From a virus: a stretch of 31,802 bases of DNA. Both the position numbers and the translations under genes were made by a program. Numbering within the stretch: the stretch's first letter is position 1; every line of letters starts with the position of its first letter. Positions 1,985 to 31,673 of this stretch are shown piece after piece. The stretch is taken from the IMG/VR virus record IMGVR_UViG_3300000325_000268, positions 1 through 31,802 of that record; one strand, 5' to 3'. Below the pieces are notes generated by a model, which was given only the letters and a program-made list of their open reading frames with translations, did not search any database and had not been told where the DNA came from.

Positions 1985-3232
1985 TTATAGTATGACCTTA
2001 GCTTCACCTTCTAACAAATATCTTGGACGGCCACCATTATCTGTTCTCATAGTTTGTTTGTCTATTCCAAAGTGATCAAACAGAGTCGCTTGAAGATCAA
2101 GTGGGCCAACAGGATTTTCTATCGGGCTATATGACCTGTCTGCTACCCCAATGGTTCTGCCAGACTGGTATTCCCCACCAGCCATAAGCATTGGGGTAAT
2201 TGAAGGCCAGTGATCCCTGCCTGAATTGGCATTGATTTTAGTTCTTCCAAACTCACCAGTAACAACAAGAATAATTTTCTCATTTAGCCCACGATCCCAA
2301 ACGTCTTGTAGGAATCCAGCTATAGCCTTGTCAACTGGGGGAGCTTTAGTTTTCATGGCTGTAGAGATAGTGCTATGCATATCCCACCCACCATAAGTAA
2401 GGGTTATGAAACGGGTTCCGTGTTCTGCAAGTCTTCTAGCAAGAAGCAGTTGTGTTCCTATGGCGTCGGAACCATAAAGAGCCTTTGTTTTTTCATCTTC
2501 TTTATCTAGATCAAAGGCGTCTTTAGCAGACCCAAGAATTACATCATAGGCTTGGCCCTTATAGAACTCTGAGGACTCTGCCCCATTGCCAGAAATTCTA
2601 GTTGCGTCCAGAGCATTTAACAAGCCCTTTCTGCTGGTGAACCTGTTCATTTCTATTCGGGGTGTAAGATTGTCTTTATTGGATGGGTCAAAAGGTTTAT
2701 ATGCCCCTCCAAGCCAAGACCCCTCGTCTCCTTCTATCTTTCCTTGTTTGACATAGGTGGGCATGCCGTTTTCTGAATGATTAGTTCCATAGACAGCAGA
2801 CACGATAGACCCAAAAGAAGGGTGCTTTGTCATAGACGTAGTAGTTCTATCTGCGTTATAATGTCCAGTCATCATAAAGTGAGTTCCCTGCCTGTGGGAA
2901 GAGTCTTTATGGCTGAAAGAGTTTATTACGTTTAGCTTGCTCGTATGTTTGGAAAGCTCTTTCCAATCAGCACCAAGAGAGATGTTAGTTTTTGAATCAT
3001 ATATCCTACCATTTACCGGTTGCCATTCTGAAGGAACATTATCTAACGGGGCGTGAAATGTTTCAAACTGAGTCGGGCCTCCACCAAGCCATAGCCAGAC
3101 AACTGTTTTGTCTTTATACGCGACGGCTCCATCTTGCGAGAAAGCCTTGTCAGAAAGACCAACAGCTGACATCCCTGCCCCAATTCCGCCGACCCGTAAA
3201 AAATCTCGCCTATTGTAGAAAAAATCTAACAT
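1985..3232 (-). CDS. DUF1501 family protein with Tat-type leader (complete)
   Basis: 415 residues, which looks complete for a DUF1501 protein. AGAGAGG lies 7 nt before the ATG. Residues 7-30 form a twin-arginine leader (NRRDFLRVGG, then GIGAGMSAVG). Family landmarks follow in order: VVWLWLGGGPTQFETF near residue 45, SHRQGTHFMMTGHY near residue 112, HPSFGSIVSAVYG, a central GTRFITLTYGGWDMH, and VVTGEFGRTKINANSGRDHW near residue 325, which resembles the conserved late DUF1501 motif. The family is alkaline-phosphatase/sulfatase-like and mostly planctomycetal; substrate unknown. It is clearly related to the truncated gene at 1-599, so the phage carries two divergent copies. It probably acts in the host periplasm after Tat export. 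Confidence 0.92.
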   Translation of the reverse strand: MLDFFYNRRDFLRVGGIGAGMSAVGLSDKAFSQDGAVAYKDKTVVWLWLGGGPTQFETFHAPLDNVPSEWQPVNGRIYDSKTNISLGADWKELSKHTSKLNVINSFSHKDSSHRQGTHFMMTGHYNADRTTTSMTKHPSFGSIVSAVYGTNHSENGMPTYVKQGKIEGDEGSWLGGAYKPFDPSNKDNLTPRIEMNRFTSRKGLLNALDATRISGNGAESSEFYKGQAYDVILGSAKDAFDLDKEDEKTKALYGSDAIGTQLLLARRLAEHGTRFITLTYGGWDMHSTISTAMKTKAPPVDKAIAGFLQDVWDRGLNEKIILVVTGEFGRTKINANSGRDHWPSITPMLMAGGEYQSGRTIGVADRSYSPIENPVGPLDLQATLFDHFGIDKQTMRTDNGGRPRYLLEGEAKVIL

Positions 3233-22372: not shown

Positions 22373-22885
22373 TTATTTTTCAAATTTTTTGGCACTTGAT
22401 AAAAGCATGCTGTTGTCGAGGTTGCTCTTTGGGGTGAATTTAAATTTGATTTCGTCTTTTACGAGTTCTAATATTTTTTCGTACCTGCTCCACGGTTCCC
22501 TTTTTGGAGAGGAAATGTCAGAAAAGCAGACCTCTGATATACCACACTGATGAAGCATCTGTAGGCACTGTAAACATGGCATTGCTGTTATGTAAGCCGT
22601 TGCGTCGAGCGTAGATTGCCCGTTTCTAACCGCGTTGTAAACAGCGTTTGCCTCCGCGTGGATCATGAAGGGGTATTTTTCTGGCCTAGTGGTGGGTAGT
22701 GCGTGGTCATCGATTCCTCTGATAAACCCATTGTAGCCGGAAGAGATGTTTGTCTTGTTTTTTACAAGCACGCACCCACACTGAGTTTGCGTATCGTGAC
22801 TTCTTCTCGACCATAGGGTCGCTTCAAGGAAAAAGATGTTATCCCAGCTCGTTGGGTGATAATGCTGCTGGATTAGGTGATACAT
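22373..22885 (-). CDS. dCMP deaminase
   Basis: 170 residues. The zinc site is complete: H76-A-E78 (MIHAEANAVYNA), and PCLQCL with C104 and C107. The proton-shuttling Glu is in HAE. TQTQCGCVLVKNKTNISSGY and GYNGFIRG are typical of ComEB/dCMP-deaminase family N-termini. The enzyme converts dCMP to dUMP, the precursor of dTMP. With NrdAB and dNMP kinase it completes a phage nucleotide pathway. Its C-terminal end lies 12 nt before promoter P2. Confidence 0.9.
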   Translation of the reverse strand: MYHLIQQHYHPTSWDNIFFLEATLWSRRSHDTQTQCGCVLVKNKTNISSGYNGFIRGIDDHALPTTRPEKYPFMIHAEANAVYNAVRNGQSTLDATAYITAMPCLQCLQMLHQCGISEVCFSDISSPKREPWSRYEKILELVKDEIKFKFTPKSNLDNSMLLSSAKKFEK

Positions 22886-25830: not shown

Positions 25831-26087
25831 TTTTGCTCTTTCATAAACACGTATAGTGGGGTGTGTTCTCCAACGTATGCACAAAATGTATTGAACTCAA
25901 GCCACTCATTGGCTTCGTCATGGGTCATCCCGTCGTCCTTCACGCAGATTTCGACCATCTTTTGAGCATCGTAAGCCACCCTTCCTGAATCGCAGCCGCC
26001 ACAAACGCCAATAATAGCACCGTCATAACCATCGGCAAACAAAAGGTCATCATCATAACGGTCAGACAACTCCTCACGAATCCCCAT
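25827..26087 (-). CDS. Conserved phage protein (DGYDGAIIGV family), unknown function
   Basis: 86 residues, AAGGAG 8 nt before the ATG. LLFADGYDGAIIGV, then GRVAYDAQKMVEICVKDDGM, then EFNTFCAYVGEHTPLYVF match a small domain found in very many tailed phages. It is an alpha/beta protein with conserved acidic residues. Its function is unknown to me. It overlaps its neighbours on both sides. Confidence 0.78.
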   Translation of the reverse strand: MGIREELSDRYDDDLLFADGYDGAIIGVCGGCDSGRVAYDAQKMVEICVKDDGMTHDEANEWLEFNTFCAYVGEHTPLYVFMKEQK

Positions 26088-26256
26088 TTTCTAGCTCCTT
26101 TTCTTTTTTCCATTGGTCTTTCTTTTTGTTCCACGCCTCTTGATGTTTTATCTTCAGTAGTTTTTCTTTGTCGTCGATTATATTGTTATGTGCCCTAATC
26201 TCTTCAAGCTCTTTCTCGTCTATCTTGTGGGATTTGTATGCTTTTTTTTTAGCCAT
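26074..26256 (-). CDS. Small charged protein directly after tmRNA
   Basis: 60 residues from ATG 26256. An in-frame upstream extension exists but lies within the tmRNA, so I reject it. The start is 11 nt beyond the tmRNA 3' end and has no clear ribosome site. The product is very charged and helical (KAYKSHKIDEKELEEIRAHN, LKIKHQEAWNKKKDQWKKEK). It may be translated from a transcript trimmed by tmRNA 3' processing. Confidence 0.5.
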   Translation of the reverse strand: MAKKKAYKSHKIDEKELEEIRAHNNIIDDKEKLLKIKHQEAWNKKKDQWKKEKELENGDS

Positions 26257-26267
26257 TTTTTTATAAG

Positions 26268-26610
26268 TGGAGGCGGCGGGAATCGAACCCGCGTCCTGTC
26301 TGGTTTCCATAGCAGTATCTACATTGTTAGTACGTTGTATTCACACAGCGAACAAAGTTATCCGACTTATCGGAGTCAGATGGGTGTACCATCATTTCAC
26401 TTTTAGCTCAAGGAGTGAACCCTCTATCTAAGCTCGACTTAGCCCGTTACCATTTGGGTGATAAGGCATGGCAAAAGCCCCAGCAGCTAGGCTGCAATCG
26501 CGAAACTAGGTTCAGCAATTAAAATTATAATCGGTTTTTATACTGACCATCCGATCAACCAGTCAATGCAACTAATACTTTCACCATCAGTCGATGCCTG
26601 TGTCACCCCC
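26268..26610 (-). ncRNA. ssrA: Transfer-messenger RNA (tmRNA)
   Basis: 343 nt. The 5' end GGGGGTG pairs with the 3' CGCCTCC (7 bp) followed by discriminator A; CCA is not encoded. The 3' end has the T-arm GCGGG-TTCGATT-CCCGC preceded by GGAC, as in bacterial tmRNAs, and the 5' part holds GCATCGACTGATGG, close to the conserved start region. The tag reading frame starts at GCT 26516 and ends at TAG 26487: tag AEPSFAIAA, a classic ClpXP-type proteolysis tag. The stop sits in the loop of a small GCAG/CTGC hairpin. The first 8 nt overlap the upstream gene's end. tmRNA with SmpB rescues stalled ribosomes; SmpB is not in this window. Phage-borne copies are known but uncommon. Confidence 0.96.
26487..26516 (-). 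other. tmRNA tag reading frame (AEPSFAIAA)
   Basis: Resume codon GCT, then nine sense codons in total (Ala-Glu-Pro-Ser-Phe-Ala-Ile-Ala-Ala) and TAG. The C-terminal Ala-Ile-Ala-Ala resembles the Leu-Ala-Ala end recognised by ClpX. A GCAG...CTGC hairpin encloses the stop. Confidence 0.9.
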
Positions 26611-26812
26611 ATTTTTTGTTAAATAGTTTCTTCTTGATTATCCACCATGTGGATTTTAATATGCTTGTATAGTTTGCTTTGCCGCCGTCTTCATATAAAC
26701 CGAAGTGTTCTAATGAACATTTGTTGCAGTAAAAATCATGACATATCCTACAGCGATAAGCGTCCTTGTATCTTATCTCTTCTTTGCACTCTTGACAATT
26801 AGTATTAACCAT
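26603..26812 (-). CDS. Small zinc-finger protein before tmRNA
   Basis: 69 residues; ATG overlaps the phosphomannomutase stop by 8 nt. Six or more cysteines in CxxC pairs (NTNCQECKEE, YRCRICHDFYCNKCSLEHFG) suggest a cross-brace or B-box/treble-clef zinc finger of about 40 residues. The C-terminus is basic with Trp (STWWIIKKKLFNKKWG). Its stop codon lies in the first 8 nt of the tmRNA, so intact tmRNA processing would cut its message. No family assigned. Confidence 0.65.
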   Translation of the reverse strand: MVNTNCQECKEEIRYKDAYRCRICHDFYCNKCSLEHFGLYEDGGKANYTSILKSTWWIIKKKLFNKKWG

Positions 26813-27506
26813 AATGTGTCTCTAGTATGCTTTTGGTTTCTTTCCAGCCCGTTACACAGTAGTGCTTGTCGGCCTTGTTTGCAATATGATAGTCGTTGCC
26901 ATCTTGATGACAACTATCTCCAAAGAAAACGGTTCTTCCAGCCATATCTGACAAGATTTGCGACTTGTCTTTACCTTTGGGGTAAATATCTATGCTAATC
27001 TCGCCCCCAATGGAAAATTCTAGCTCTGGATATTTGACAGAAAGTTGTCCTACTATTCTTTCTCTTTCTTTGTTTTGCTTATCCCACGTAAAATATTCTT
27101 TTCGTAGTTCGTTATCAGCATCTCGACCCACTGTAGATATGTTCATCATACCGACGCGATCCTCTATATTATTCGCCGCCCGCCCACACCACTGACTCTC
27201 GTTTACTAAGTCCATGATGTCGATTGTCAAAATAAGTGGTGTGTTCCACGGCGATTGCTTTACCAGACTATTTCTTTCATAAAGTTGATTTCCACAGTTC
27301 TGGTAACAGCCATTCACAAGCCTATATAAAGGAAGGCCAATTTGTTGGACTGTTTTTTGTTTATTCGATCCGGTTACTAGGAATACGCTATTGCCAATTC
27401 CTTTTTGAGTATTTATCCAGCTCCCGAAAAAGTTTTTAAACTCTTTGGACATCACGCCCCTTGGCGGGGTAAGGGTTCCGTCTACATCGAATAAAAAAGC
27501 AGTCAT
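26805..27506 (-). CDS. Phosphomannomutase, eukaryotic type (HAD superfamily)
   Basis: 233 residues, near the 245 of human PMM enzymes. The motifs are those of PMM, not of bacterial phosphoglucomutase-type enzymes: FDVDGTLTPPRGVMS (catalytic Asp at the start), SVFLVTGSNKQK, NRVGMMNISTVGRDAD-like (here VGMMNISTVGRDADN), GGEISIDIYPKGKDKSQ and VFFGDSCHQDGNDYHIANKA. PMM converts mannose-6-phosphate to mannose-1-phosphate for GDP-mannose. A PMI-type cupin and a glycosyltransferase are encoded in the same window. A eukaryotic-type PMM in a phage is notable; host bacteria with this type exist, so a transfer is likely. Confidence 0.86.
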   Translation of the reverse strand: MTAFLFDVDGTLTPPRGVMSKEFKNFFGSWINTQKGIGNSVFLVTGSNKQKTVQQIGLPLYRLVNGCYQNCGNQLYERNSLVKQSPWNTPLILTIDIMDLVNESQWCGRAANNIEDRVGMMNISTVGRDADNELRKEYFTWDKQNKERERIVGQLSVKYPELEFSIGGEISIDIYPKGKDKSQILSDMAGRTVFFGDSCHQDGNDYHIANKADKHYCVTGWKETKSILETHYG

Positions 27507-28162: not shown

Positions 28163-29380
28163 TTATTGTCTCCAACCCTTCATCAGTAGTCTGATAGCGT
28201 TTCCTCCAAGAATCTTCTGAATCTCATCGTCACTATATCTTCTTAATGAAGTTAAGTATCTTGTCAGTCTTGGTAGTTCCGATATGTCAACCATCTCGTC
28301 TGGAGGGTCTGTAAATCCGTCATAGTCTGTACCTAAACCGATCACATCGACTCCTGCGACATCTCTCATGTGACTTATGGTTTGTTCTATGTATCTCATG
28401 CCTAAAGGGGTGTCTGTGGGGCTTAACCAGTAGTTCATGAATATAATTCCGGCAACACCTCCGTTGTCAGCTATCCATTTAAGCTCCCAGTCCTCTAGGT
28501 TGTATGGGTCACGGTTTATTTCAAAACATCCAGTGTGACTGGAGAGTACACGGTTTTTTCTTTTTCCAACTATCTCGTAAATCTCAGACCTAGCTTTCGG
28601 TGTGCAGTGAGCTATATCAATTAGCATACCTAGTTCGCACATTCTCTCCACTACAGATTTGCCTAGTTTGGATAGTCCAACATTCATGTCCCAGCCAGCC
28701 ATTAGACTTTTCCAATTGCTTTTTTTGATTCCATAGTTAGGGTAGGGAAACACTGGGTGTGCTATCTTGTTAGGGTAGAAATGTGCAAGTGTTAGATAGG
28801 CAACTCCTCTGTCTGCCAAATTCTCTAAGTTTTGCAAAACTTCTTCATCCACAACCTTCATATCTGACGAGGTTTCGCACTCAAGCCCCTGTAGGCTGTG
28901 ACCACCTTCAACCGAGTGTATCATGGAGATATGCCCATTTTCAAGAGACGCTTCTAACTCGACTGGGTTTTTGACAAACTCTATCGTCTTAACGTCTTGA
29001 TCTAGGTTTTTTTTATTGTAGAGGTCTACTTCTTTTTCCATAGCATCCATCATGGAAATTGTTGCGTCGTAGTAGAAGGGGTCAAAGACCCGTTTTTTTG
29101 TTGATGGCGATAACGCTAGAGCAAGGCTTATGAGTGACTGATCTTCCAGCCACTCTCGTTCTGGGATGTAGCAAGTAGAAAGAACAATGTCAACGCCGCC
29201 CTTCTCAATAAGAGGAAACGTGCTTCGCTGACTCAAAGGCCAAAACGCTCTTTTAAAAAGGGTAGATAAAAATTTAGTCTTACCTCCTGTTAAATCTCTG
29301 TCTAACAGAAACTTCTTTAGTACAGCGTGGTTATGTAGATCAACTACAACCGAATCATTGTGAATATTTTGCCAAGACAT
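28163..29380 (-). CDS. Peptidase M19 / membrane dipeptidase homologue
   Basis: 405 residues, near the usual length. AGGGGG 8 nt before the ATG. Motifs in order: VVDLHNHAVL (metal His16 and His18, HxH rather than the HxD of renal dipeptidase), ISMIHSVEGGHSLQG (bridging Glu), LTLAHFYPN, LGMLIDIAHCTPKARSE, VLSSHTGCFEINRDPYN (metal His), and VIGLGTDYDGFTDPP (Asp). This is the amidohydrolase-related dipeptidase family, usually acting on dipeptides. No signal peptide. It is not a usual phage gene: a role in peptidoglycan-fragment or peptide recycling is possible. The first ligand differs, so the substrate may too. Confidence 0.87.
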   Translation of the reverse strand: MSWQNIHNDSVVVDLHNHAVLKKFLLDRDLTGGKTKFLSTLFKRAFWPLSQRSTFPLIEKGGVDIVLSTCYIPEREWLEDQSLISLALALSPSTKKRVFDPFYYDATISMMDAMEKEVDLYNKKNLDQDVKTIEFVKNPVELEASLENGHISMIHSVEGGHSLQGLECETSSDMKVVDEEVLQNLENLADRGVAYLTLAHFYPNKIAHPVFPYPNYGIKKSNWKSLMAGWDMNVGLSKLGKSVVERMCELGMLIDIAHCTPKARSEIYEIVGKRKNRVLSSHTGCFEINRDPYNLEDWELKWIADNGGVAGIIFMNYWLSPTDTPLGMRYIEQTISHMRDVAGVDVIGLGTDYDGFTDPPDEMVDISELPRLTRYLTSLRRYSDDEIQKILGGNAIRLLMKGWRQ

Positions 29381-31212: not shown

Positions 31213-31601
31213 GCTAAAAATCCAAATTTATTTTAGGCGTACCGACCCCATTTATACCTGTATAGAACTCTTTATTTCCCCCCGAGTCATCATTATTTTT
31301 GGGAAGGATTTAATTCTTTTTGGTATATGGTAGCGGTTGTAGGCAGTATGGTCTTTAGTGCTAACAGATTCTCTTGGGCTAGTTTCGTTATTCGACCTAT
31401 ACAGGACTCGGTTGAAATGGTTGTTCAGAGCCGAGGTTTTTATTTTTTGCCATACTCTGGAGTGGTCGTACACTCTCTCATAACCTACAAACTGCAATGG
31501 ACTAAGGTGAGGCTTCAGCCCAATTATTCACTTTATACAATTATTTGTGCAGCCTTGAATACTATGCTACTATTATTCAATATTTTTAGTGTAATGTTCA
31601 G
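31213..31601 (-). other. Stretch without a convincing gene
   Basis: About 390 nt between the tRNA-Arg 3' end and promoter P4. The longest minus-strand frame, 31252-31497 (81 codons), begins only with TTG and has no ribosome site. The RNA could fold locally: CTCGG...CCGAG and GGCTGAAGCC hairpins. No T-run terminator follows the tRNA. It may be a decayed gene, a leader, or an uncharacterised RNA. Confidence 0.4.
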
Positions 31602-31673
31602 TAGCTCCACGAGGAATCGAACCCCGAACTAGGGTTTAGAAGACCCTTGTTATATCCTTTTAACTATGAAGCC
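31602..31673 (-). tRNA. tRNA-Arg (anticodon UCU)
   Basis: 72 nt cloverleaf on the minus strand. Acceptor GGCTTCA/TGGAGCT, D-arm GTTA/TAAC, anticodon stem AGGGT/ACCCT with loop CTTCTAA (anticodon TCT), variable loop AGTT, T-arm CGGGG/CCTCG with loop TTCGATT, and discriminator A. CCA is not encoded. It reads AGA codons, which the AT-leaning genes here use. It starts only a few nt after the predicted start of promoter P5. Confidence 0.92.

Follow-up and report, generated by a model that had tools for sequence, protein, structure and literature searches.

The stretch of DNA analysed here, which we call the window, is a 31,802-base virus record of the IMG/VR type that codes for the large and small subunits of a class Ia ribonucleotide reductase, a UvsX-like recombinase, a DnaB-like helicase, a primase, an endonuclease VII and a deoxynucleoside monophosphate kinase. 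Its NrdA protein is about 55% identical to those of cyanomyophages and pelagimyophages, Pelagibacter phage Mosig among them, and 75-84% identical to those of many uncultured viral contigs. The window is from an uncultured T4-like phage related to the marine cyano- and pelagimyophages, and its own lineage is probably marine as well. The features that we discuss are given in Table 1. Two of them lie away from the main locus. The DUF1501 protein belongs to a family that is mostly cellular and is here found in a T4-like phage; it has homologs in relatives at 28-78% identity, one relative (G008) having two side by side. The TCT anticodon of the tRNA-Arg gene is also found near the tmRNA genes of several relatives.

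The main locus is a one-piece tmRNA gene. ARAGORN finds it with the tag AEPSFAIAA and places the coding part at gene positions 95-124, and Rfam cmscan gives an untruncated match to the whole of RF00023 (model positions 1-374 of 374) at 26265-26610 on the minus strand, with 89.9 bits and an E value of 6.4e-34. The score is moderate yet far above chance level, the gathering score of RF00023 being 47 bits. An earlier note made from the letters of this DNA had claimed a complete tmRNA, with a covariance model as the means of checking it, and the claim is borne out by both programs. The 3' limit of 26268 that it gave is consistent with that of ARAGORN, 26268 being the discriminator base. It had further described the acceptor pairing, the T-arm and the tag frame as intact, and the sequence, the Rfam alignment and ARAGORN agree on this. 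The acceptor stem includes G3-U70, the alanine identity pair, the T-arm is canonical (GCGGG-TTCGATT-CCCGC), and sequence and alignment include the closing helix H2 between the 5' and 3' parts. For the PK2-PK4 region the alignment to the bacterial RF00023 consensus has low posterior probability. The gene ends in A-CTT and does not encode CCA, so addition by the host nucleotidyltransferase would be required. The model for permuted tmRNA, RF04321, has no match in the window at its gathering score, and the two halves of the gene are in the standard order.

Table 1. Positions of the features of the window that are discussed in the text
Feature	Position	Strand	Evidence or remark
DUF1501 protein	1985-3232	-	PF07394, 227 bits
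dCMP/cytidine deaminase	22373-22885	-	PF00383, 73 bits; in relatives directly after the tmRNA slot
60-aa ORF downstream of the tmRNA	26074-26256	-	ATG (26256) 10 nt after 26267 and 11 nt after the discriminator
One-piece tmRNA gene (ssrA-like)	26267-26610	-	ARAGORN; Rfam RF00023; covariation with relatives
Acceptor stem, 3' strand CGCCTCC	26269-26275	-	sequence, Rfam alignment; discriminator A at 26268
Tag frame AEPSFAIAA with TAG stop, resume codon GCT	26487-26516	-	ARAGORN
Pseudoknot PK1, S1 ACTGG/TCAGT (5 bp), S2 TGATCGG/CCGATTA (7 bp)	26526-26564	-	upstream of the tag
Acceptor stem, 5' strand GGGGGTG	26604-26610	-	sequence, Rfam alignment; includes G3 of G3-U70
69-aa cysteine-rich zinc-finger-like protein, upstream ORF	26603-26812	-	PF01363 (FYVE), 25.1 bits, just below cut-off
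HAD/phosphomannomutase-like protein	26805-27506	-	near the tmRNA; conserved in relatives
M19 dipeptidase-like protein	28163-29380	-	180 bits; near the tmRNA; conserved in relatives
tRNA-Arg (TCT)	31601-31673	-	near the window edge

Comparison with relatives indicates that both the reading frame and the structure of this RNA are under selection as those of a tmRNA. Additional one-piece genes came from a scan for the PK1 motif. For an alignment of ten of the related phage genes RNAalifold gives 77 pairs, of which 26 show two-sided compensation, and neither the acceptor G-U nor the T-arm varies across the ten. The hairpins that follow the tag have compensatory changes in this pseudoknot-free model, and several helices of the PK2-PK4 region covary among the relatives. 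PK1, as a pseudoknot, was given a test of its own on 23 phage tmRNAs, both one-piece and permuted. Its cells are paired in 95.6% of cases as against 71.4% after shuffling, 9 of its 12 pairs have two-sided changes, and the covariation score is 0.70 as against 0.25 in shuffles, with none of 500 shuffles attaining the observed score. When the partners are slid by one to three columns, pairing falls to 15-41%. We infer from this conservation that the window tmRNA is active.

We consider it very likely that the gene encodes a functional one-piece phage tmRNA, processed by the host and engaged in trans-translation, and that it belongs to a pool that moves between T4-like phages. It would be transcribed within the run of small same-strand genes and excised by host tRNA-processing enzymes, with RNase P forming the 5' end and a 3' endonuclease followed by CCA addition forming the 3' end. 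The host AlaRS would charge it with alanine by way of G3-U70, and host SmpB would bind it. It would then act on ribosomes stalled on non-stop messages that arise from phage or host mRNA decay, appending AEPSFAIAA for proteolysis. Each of these steps, from transcription to a benefit for the phage, is a prediction, and the roles in rescue and degradation are plausible. The check for smpB that the earlier note proposed was run on relatives, and we found no SmpB in 50 related records (one of 173 kb); the window, at 31.8 kb, is only part of the phage genome, and an SmpB gene may be in the missing part. The absence from the 50 relatives suggests that host SmpB is presumably used.

The presumed use of host SmpB also bears on another possible function for the RNA, that of a competitive inhibitor or decoy which titrates host SmpB or AlaRS, or swaps the host tag, and so alters host protein turnover. 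There is a precedent in mycobacteriophage DS6A, whose tmRNA consists of the tRNA-like domain only and inhibits the host tmRNA (PMC4131195, PMC11915505), and if there is no SmpB in the relatives the phage RNA must compete for that of the host. However, the full tag frame with its stop and a covarying PK1 are maintained in these genes, as is the A-[LIM]-A-A ending of the tag, which a pure decoy would not need, and we regard this function as improbable. The gene could also be a non-functional passenger, a remnant of a host ssrA integration site acquired by imprecise excision, host ssrA being a common site of phage integration (literature cited in PMC9004378). Against this, the gene is complete, is in the middle of an operon in a T4-like genome of virulent type, recurs, with compensatory changes, in ten or more related phage contigs, and in tmRNA trees is without a clearly close cellular relative, and a passenger of this kind is very improbable.

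With regard to its setting, the tmRNA gene is tightly embedded among its neighbours, much as had been claimed. The TGA stop of the upstream ORF is at positions 6-8 of the tmRNA, the first 8 nt of which are overlapped, and the ATG of the downstream ORF is 11 nt past the discriminator. We looked for a dedicated tmRNA promoter, and promoter-like sites just upstream are no more frequent than expected by chance. Homologs of the upstream ORF are found a short way upstream of the tmRNA in five relatives (G002, G006, G009, G046 and L362), and a homolog of the downstream ORF is near the permuted tmRNA of G013 (L275). The upstream stop is at +8 relative to the tmRNA in the window and L368, at 0 in G048 and at -2 or -3 in L371, G008 and G035, and in most one-piece relatives the downstream start is 9-42 nt after the tmRNA, the neighbour genes differing. 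In cultured phages the next CDS begins 22 nt (Cellulophaga phage Calle_2) and 14 nt (Streptomyces phage Annadreamy) past the tmRNA. Given such compact embedding in most relatives and in cultured phages, it is ordinary for phage tmRNAs. The earlier proposal of a functional tmRNA within an operon holds in that the gene is complete, very probably functional and in a same-strand run, but the embedding is not special.

In the window and in L368 processing at the 5' end would excise the stop codon of the upstream ORF. We considered whether the message so stripped would itself become a substrate of the tmRNA; the arrangement holds in these two only. As the upstream ORF, where it is close and convincing, stops short of the tmRNA in the other relatives, the stop loss is taken as coincidence, and we read the overlap as a by-product of compaction.

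The tag AEPSFAIAA is also found in the phage contigs L362, L365, L368 and L371. Other tags in the related phages are AEKNFALAA, AEHSFAMAA, ADKQFALAA and VEENFALAA, the A-[LIM]-A-A ending being kept and the middle varying. A scan of about 85,000 species genomes gave no exact AEPSFAIAA; tags of this shape are mainly in Acidobacteriaceae and Planctomycetota (Phycisphaerales and Gemmataceae), with further matches in Aquificota, Dadabacteria, Thermodesulfobacteriota, Chlamydiae and Actinomycetes, and at least five phyla have AEP-type tags. The suggestion of a planctomycete host, made from the Ala-Glu start of the tag, was not upheld, as the tag shape is found in several phyla and the same RNA body occurs with VEENFALAA or ADKQFALAA. 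Tags vary freely within one phage RNA lineage, and the tag is no guide to the identity of the host. A planctomycete origin of the gene was also considered and is unsupported by the genome-wide tag scan and by the tmRNA trees, in which the phage genes group with one another, with weak support and with alternatives unrejected by the AU test.

Phage tmRNAs are already known, compactly embedded ones included, and the window tmRNA joins that class. Phages carrying ssrA are listed in PMC4131195; tmRNA has been reported in 402 of 18,146 phage genomes, with 53 of 133 unique structures being two-piece and the cases of Melnitz and Mosig described (PMC9004378); and PMC11915505, the source of RF04321, has 79 unique phage tmRNA sequences. 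With the bacterial one-piece tmRNA the window gene shares the full-length model match, G3-U70, the T-arm, PK1, a 9-residue tag ending in A-I-A-A and the tag stop. It differs in being phage-encoded, in being without CCA, in being embedded among protein genes and in its score, which is below the 117-198 bits of the 54 matching genomes of the planctomycete phylum. Like the tmRNAs of the mycobacteriophage Bxz1 group, Bacillus phage G, Streptomyces phages and Calle_2, it is complete, and these too are often compactly placed between same-strand genes; however, nucleotide similarity to them is undetectable outside the tRNA-like end, and the window is of a marine T4-like lineage. The window tmRNA had no nucleotide match in 50,697 phage records, and a query with its relative G008 matched only in the T-arm and acceptor end. 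Pelagibacter phage Mosig is a T4-like marine relative that likewise has its own tmRNA (RF04321, 93.6 bits), but the Mosig gene is permuted whereas that of the window is in standard order. A glutamine riboswitch is reported to accompany the Mosig tmRNA, whereas Rfam cmscan found no riboswitch family in the window.

We also came across two permuted genes in other phages. Tunturiibacter phage Tunturi_4 (L380, PP885687.1) has an unannotated one (RF04321, 79 bits) right after a gene for a release factor with an RF-1 domain. Genomes of Edaphobacter lichenicola, apparently the same kind of host, have a one-piece tmRNA with the tag AEPQFALAA, and phage and host seem not to share the same form. In Stenotrophomonas phage vB_SmaM_Bhz51 (L379, OR797040.1) the annotated ssrA is permuted, and within the clan the betaproteobacterial model fits it best (92 bits).

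Among phages with related NrdA both forms occur. A one-piece tmRNA exceeds the RF00023 cut-off in 6 of 50 records and a permuted one the RF04321 cut-off in 19 of 50, all of them other records, and none has both; the two sets of 50 differ slightly, and the remainder of the 80 records was scanned with RF00023. By our own arithmetic the chance of zero overlap is about 0.05 if the forms are independent, and because of this value and the fragmentary nature of the records mutual exclusion within a genome is only suggestive. The favoured site in the relatives is immediately upstream of a dCMP deaminase homologous to that of the window. This slot holds a permuted gene in G002, G005, G009, G015, G016, G017, G024, G026, G033, G073 and G074, and a one-piece gene in G008, G035 and L362. 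The order ORF22897, ORF26603, tmRNA, deaminase is found with a permuted gene in G009 (L278) and with a one-piece gene, tag AEPSFAIAA, in L362. Thus one-piece and permuted tmRNA genes exchange at one locus. In the literature that we searched, the coverage of which was partial, we found no description of such alternation at one locus within one phage clade. In the window itself the deaminase slot is without tmRNA; ORF22897 and the deaminase are adjacent and ORF26603 and the tmRNA are together about 3.3 kb upstream, and the latter two seem to have moved together. In the permuted genes at L269, L274, L276 and L278 the coding piece ends in a PK2-like hairpin, beyond which come a T run and the start of the deaminase gene, and the hairpin could double as an attenuator.

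The NrdA tree, with 27 tips, has 6 changes of tmRNA form as against 6.3 with shuffled labels, so the form is not inherited along with NrdA. On this tree the nearest relative of the window for which the form is known, G002, has the permuted form. All this would fit a pool of tmRNA genes circulating among related T4-like phages, with the two forms swapping in the same slot.

How the two forms came to share a slot is a separate question. Phages may have repeatedly taken one-piece or permuted genes from different bacterial hosts, the alternation then being due to host switching and not to conversion of form, and we put the chances of this at about even. A tree that splits all one-piece genes, bacterial and phage, from all permuted genes is unrejected by the AU test on an alignment of 228 columns (p 0.40). 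However, the phage permuted genes have a PK1 of the one-piece type: a strict search with a score of at least 30 finds it in 17 of 18, as in 6 of 7 phage and 17 of 32 bacterial one-piece genes, but in none of 20 alphaproteobacterial permuted genes (9 of 385 shuffles). Their T-loops are mostly canonical TTCRA, whereas the alphaproteobacterial permuted genes have GGC[AG]GT in 20 of 20. An exclusive clade of phage and alphaproteobacterial permuted genes is rejected (p 0.028), although the same clade with one beta-type and one Stenotrophomonas-phage gene added is not (p 0.35); the betaproteobacterial permuted comparison is with one gene only. The tag region DNA (VEENFALAA) is also near-identical between the one-piece gene of G008 and the permuted genes of G002 and G011, which suggests exchange between the forms or common descent.

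The alternative is that at one locus a single phage tmRNA gene has gone from one order to the other, standard or circularly permuted, which we hold to be possible but rather unlikely. In trees of joined halves the window, G035 and G008 cluster at 100% and are placed among the phage permuted genes. The maximum likelihood trees hint in this way at one-piece genes nested inside the permuted ones, which we do not claim, as the AU test spares both the split tree above and one joining 'set A' with the bacterial one-piece genes (p 0.60). No tandem or intermediate gene was found up- or downstream of 18 permuted loci, where there are only ordinary tRNA T-loops. If such a switch did occur, both forms would descend from one phage gene and not from repeated host imports, and the locus would preserve a natural instance of a tmRNA being permuted, or of the reverse change.

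The window tmRNA is a well-supported uncultured marine addition to a known class, and the comparison around it carries more weight. The phages with NrdA 75-84% identical to that of the window have two tmRNA architectures in the same slot, free variation of the tag and no smpB, which makes this a good lineage in which to ask how two-piece tmRNA arises. It is also well suited to asking whether the tags of phages are matched to the proteases of their hosts, and for what reason T4-like phages retain a rescue RNA of their own.
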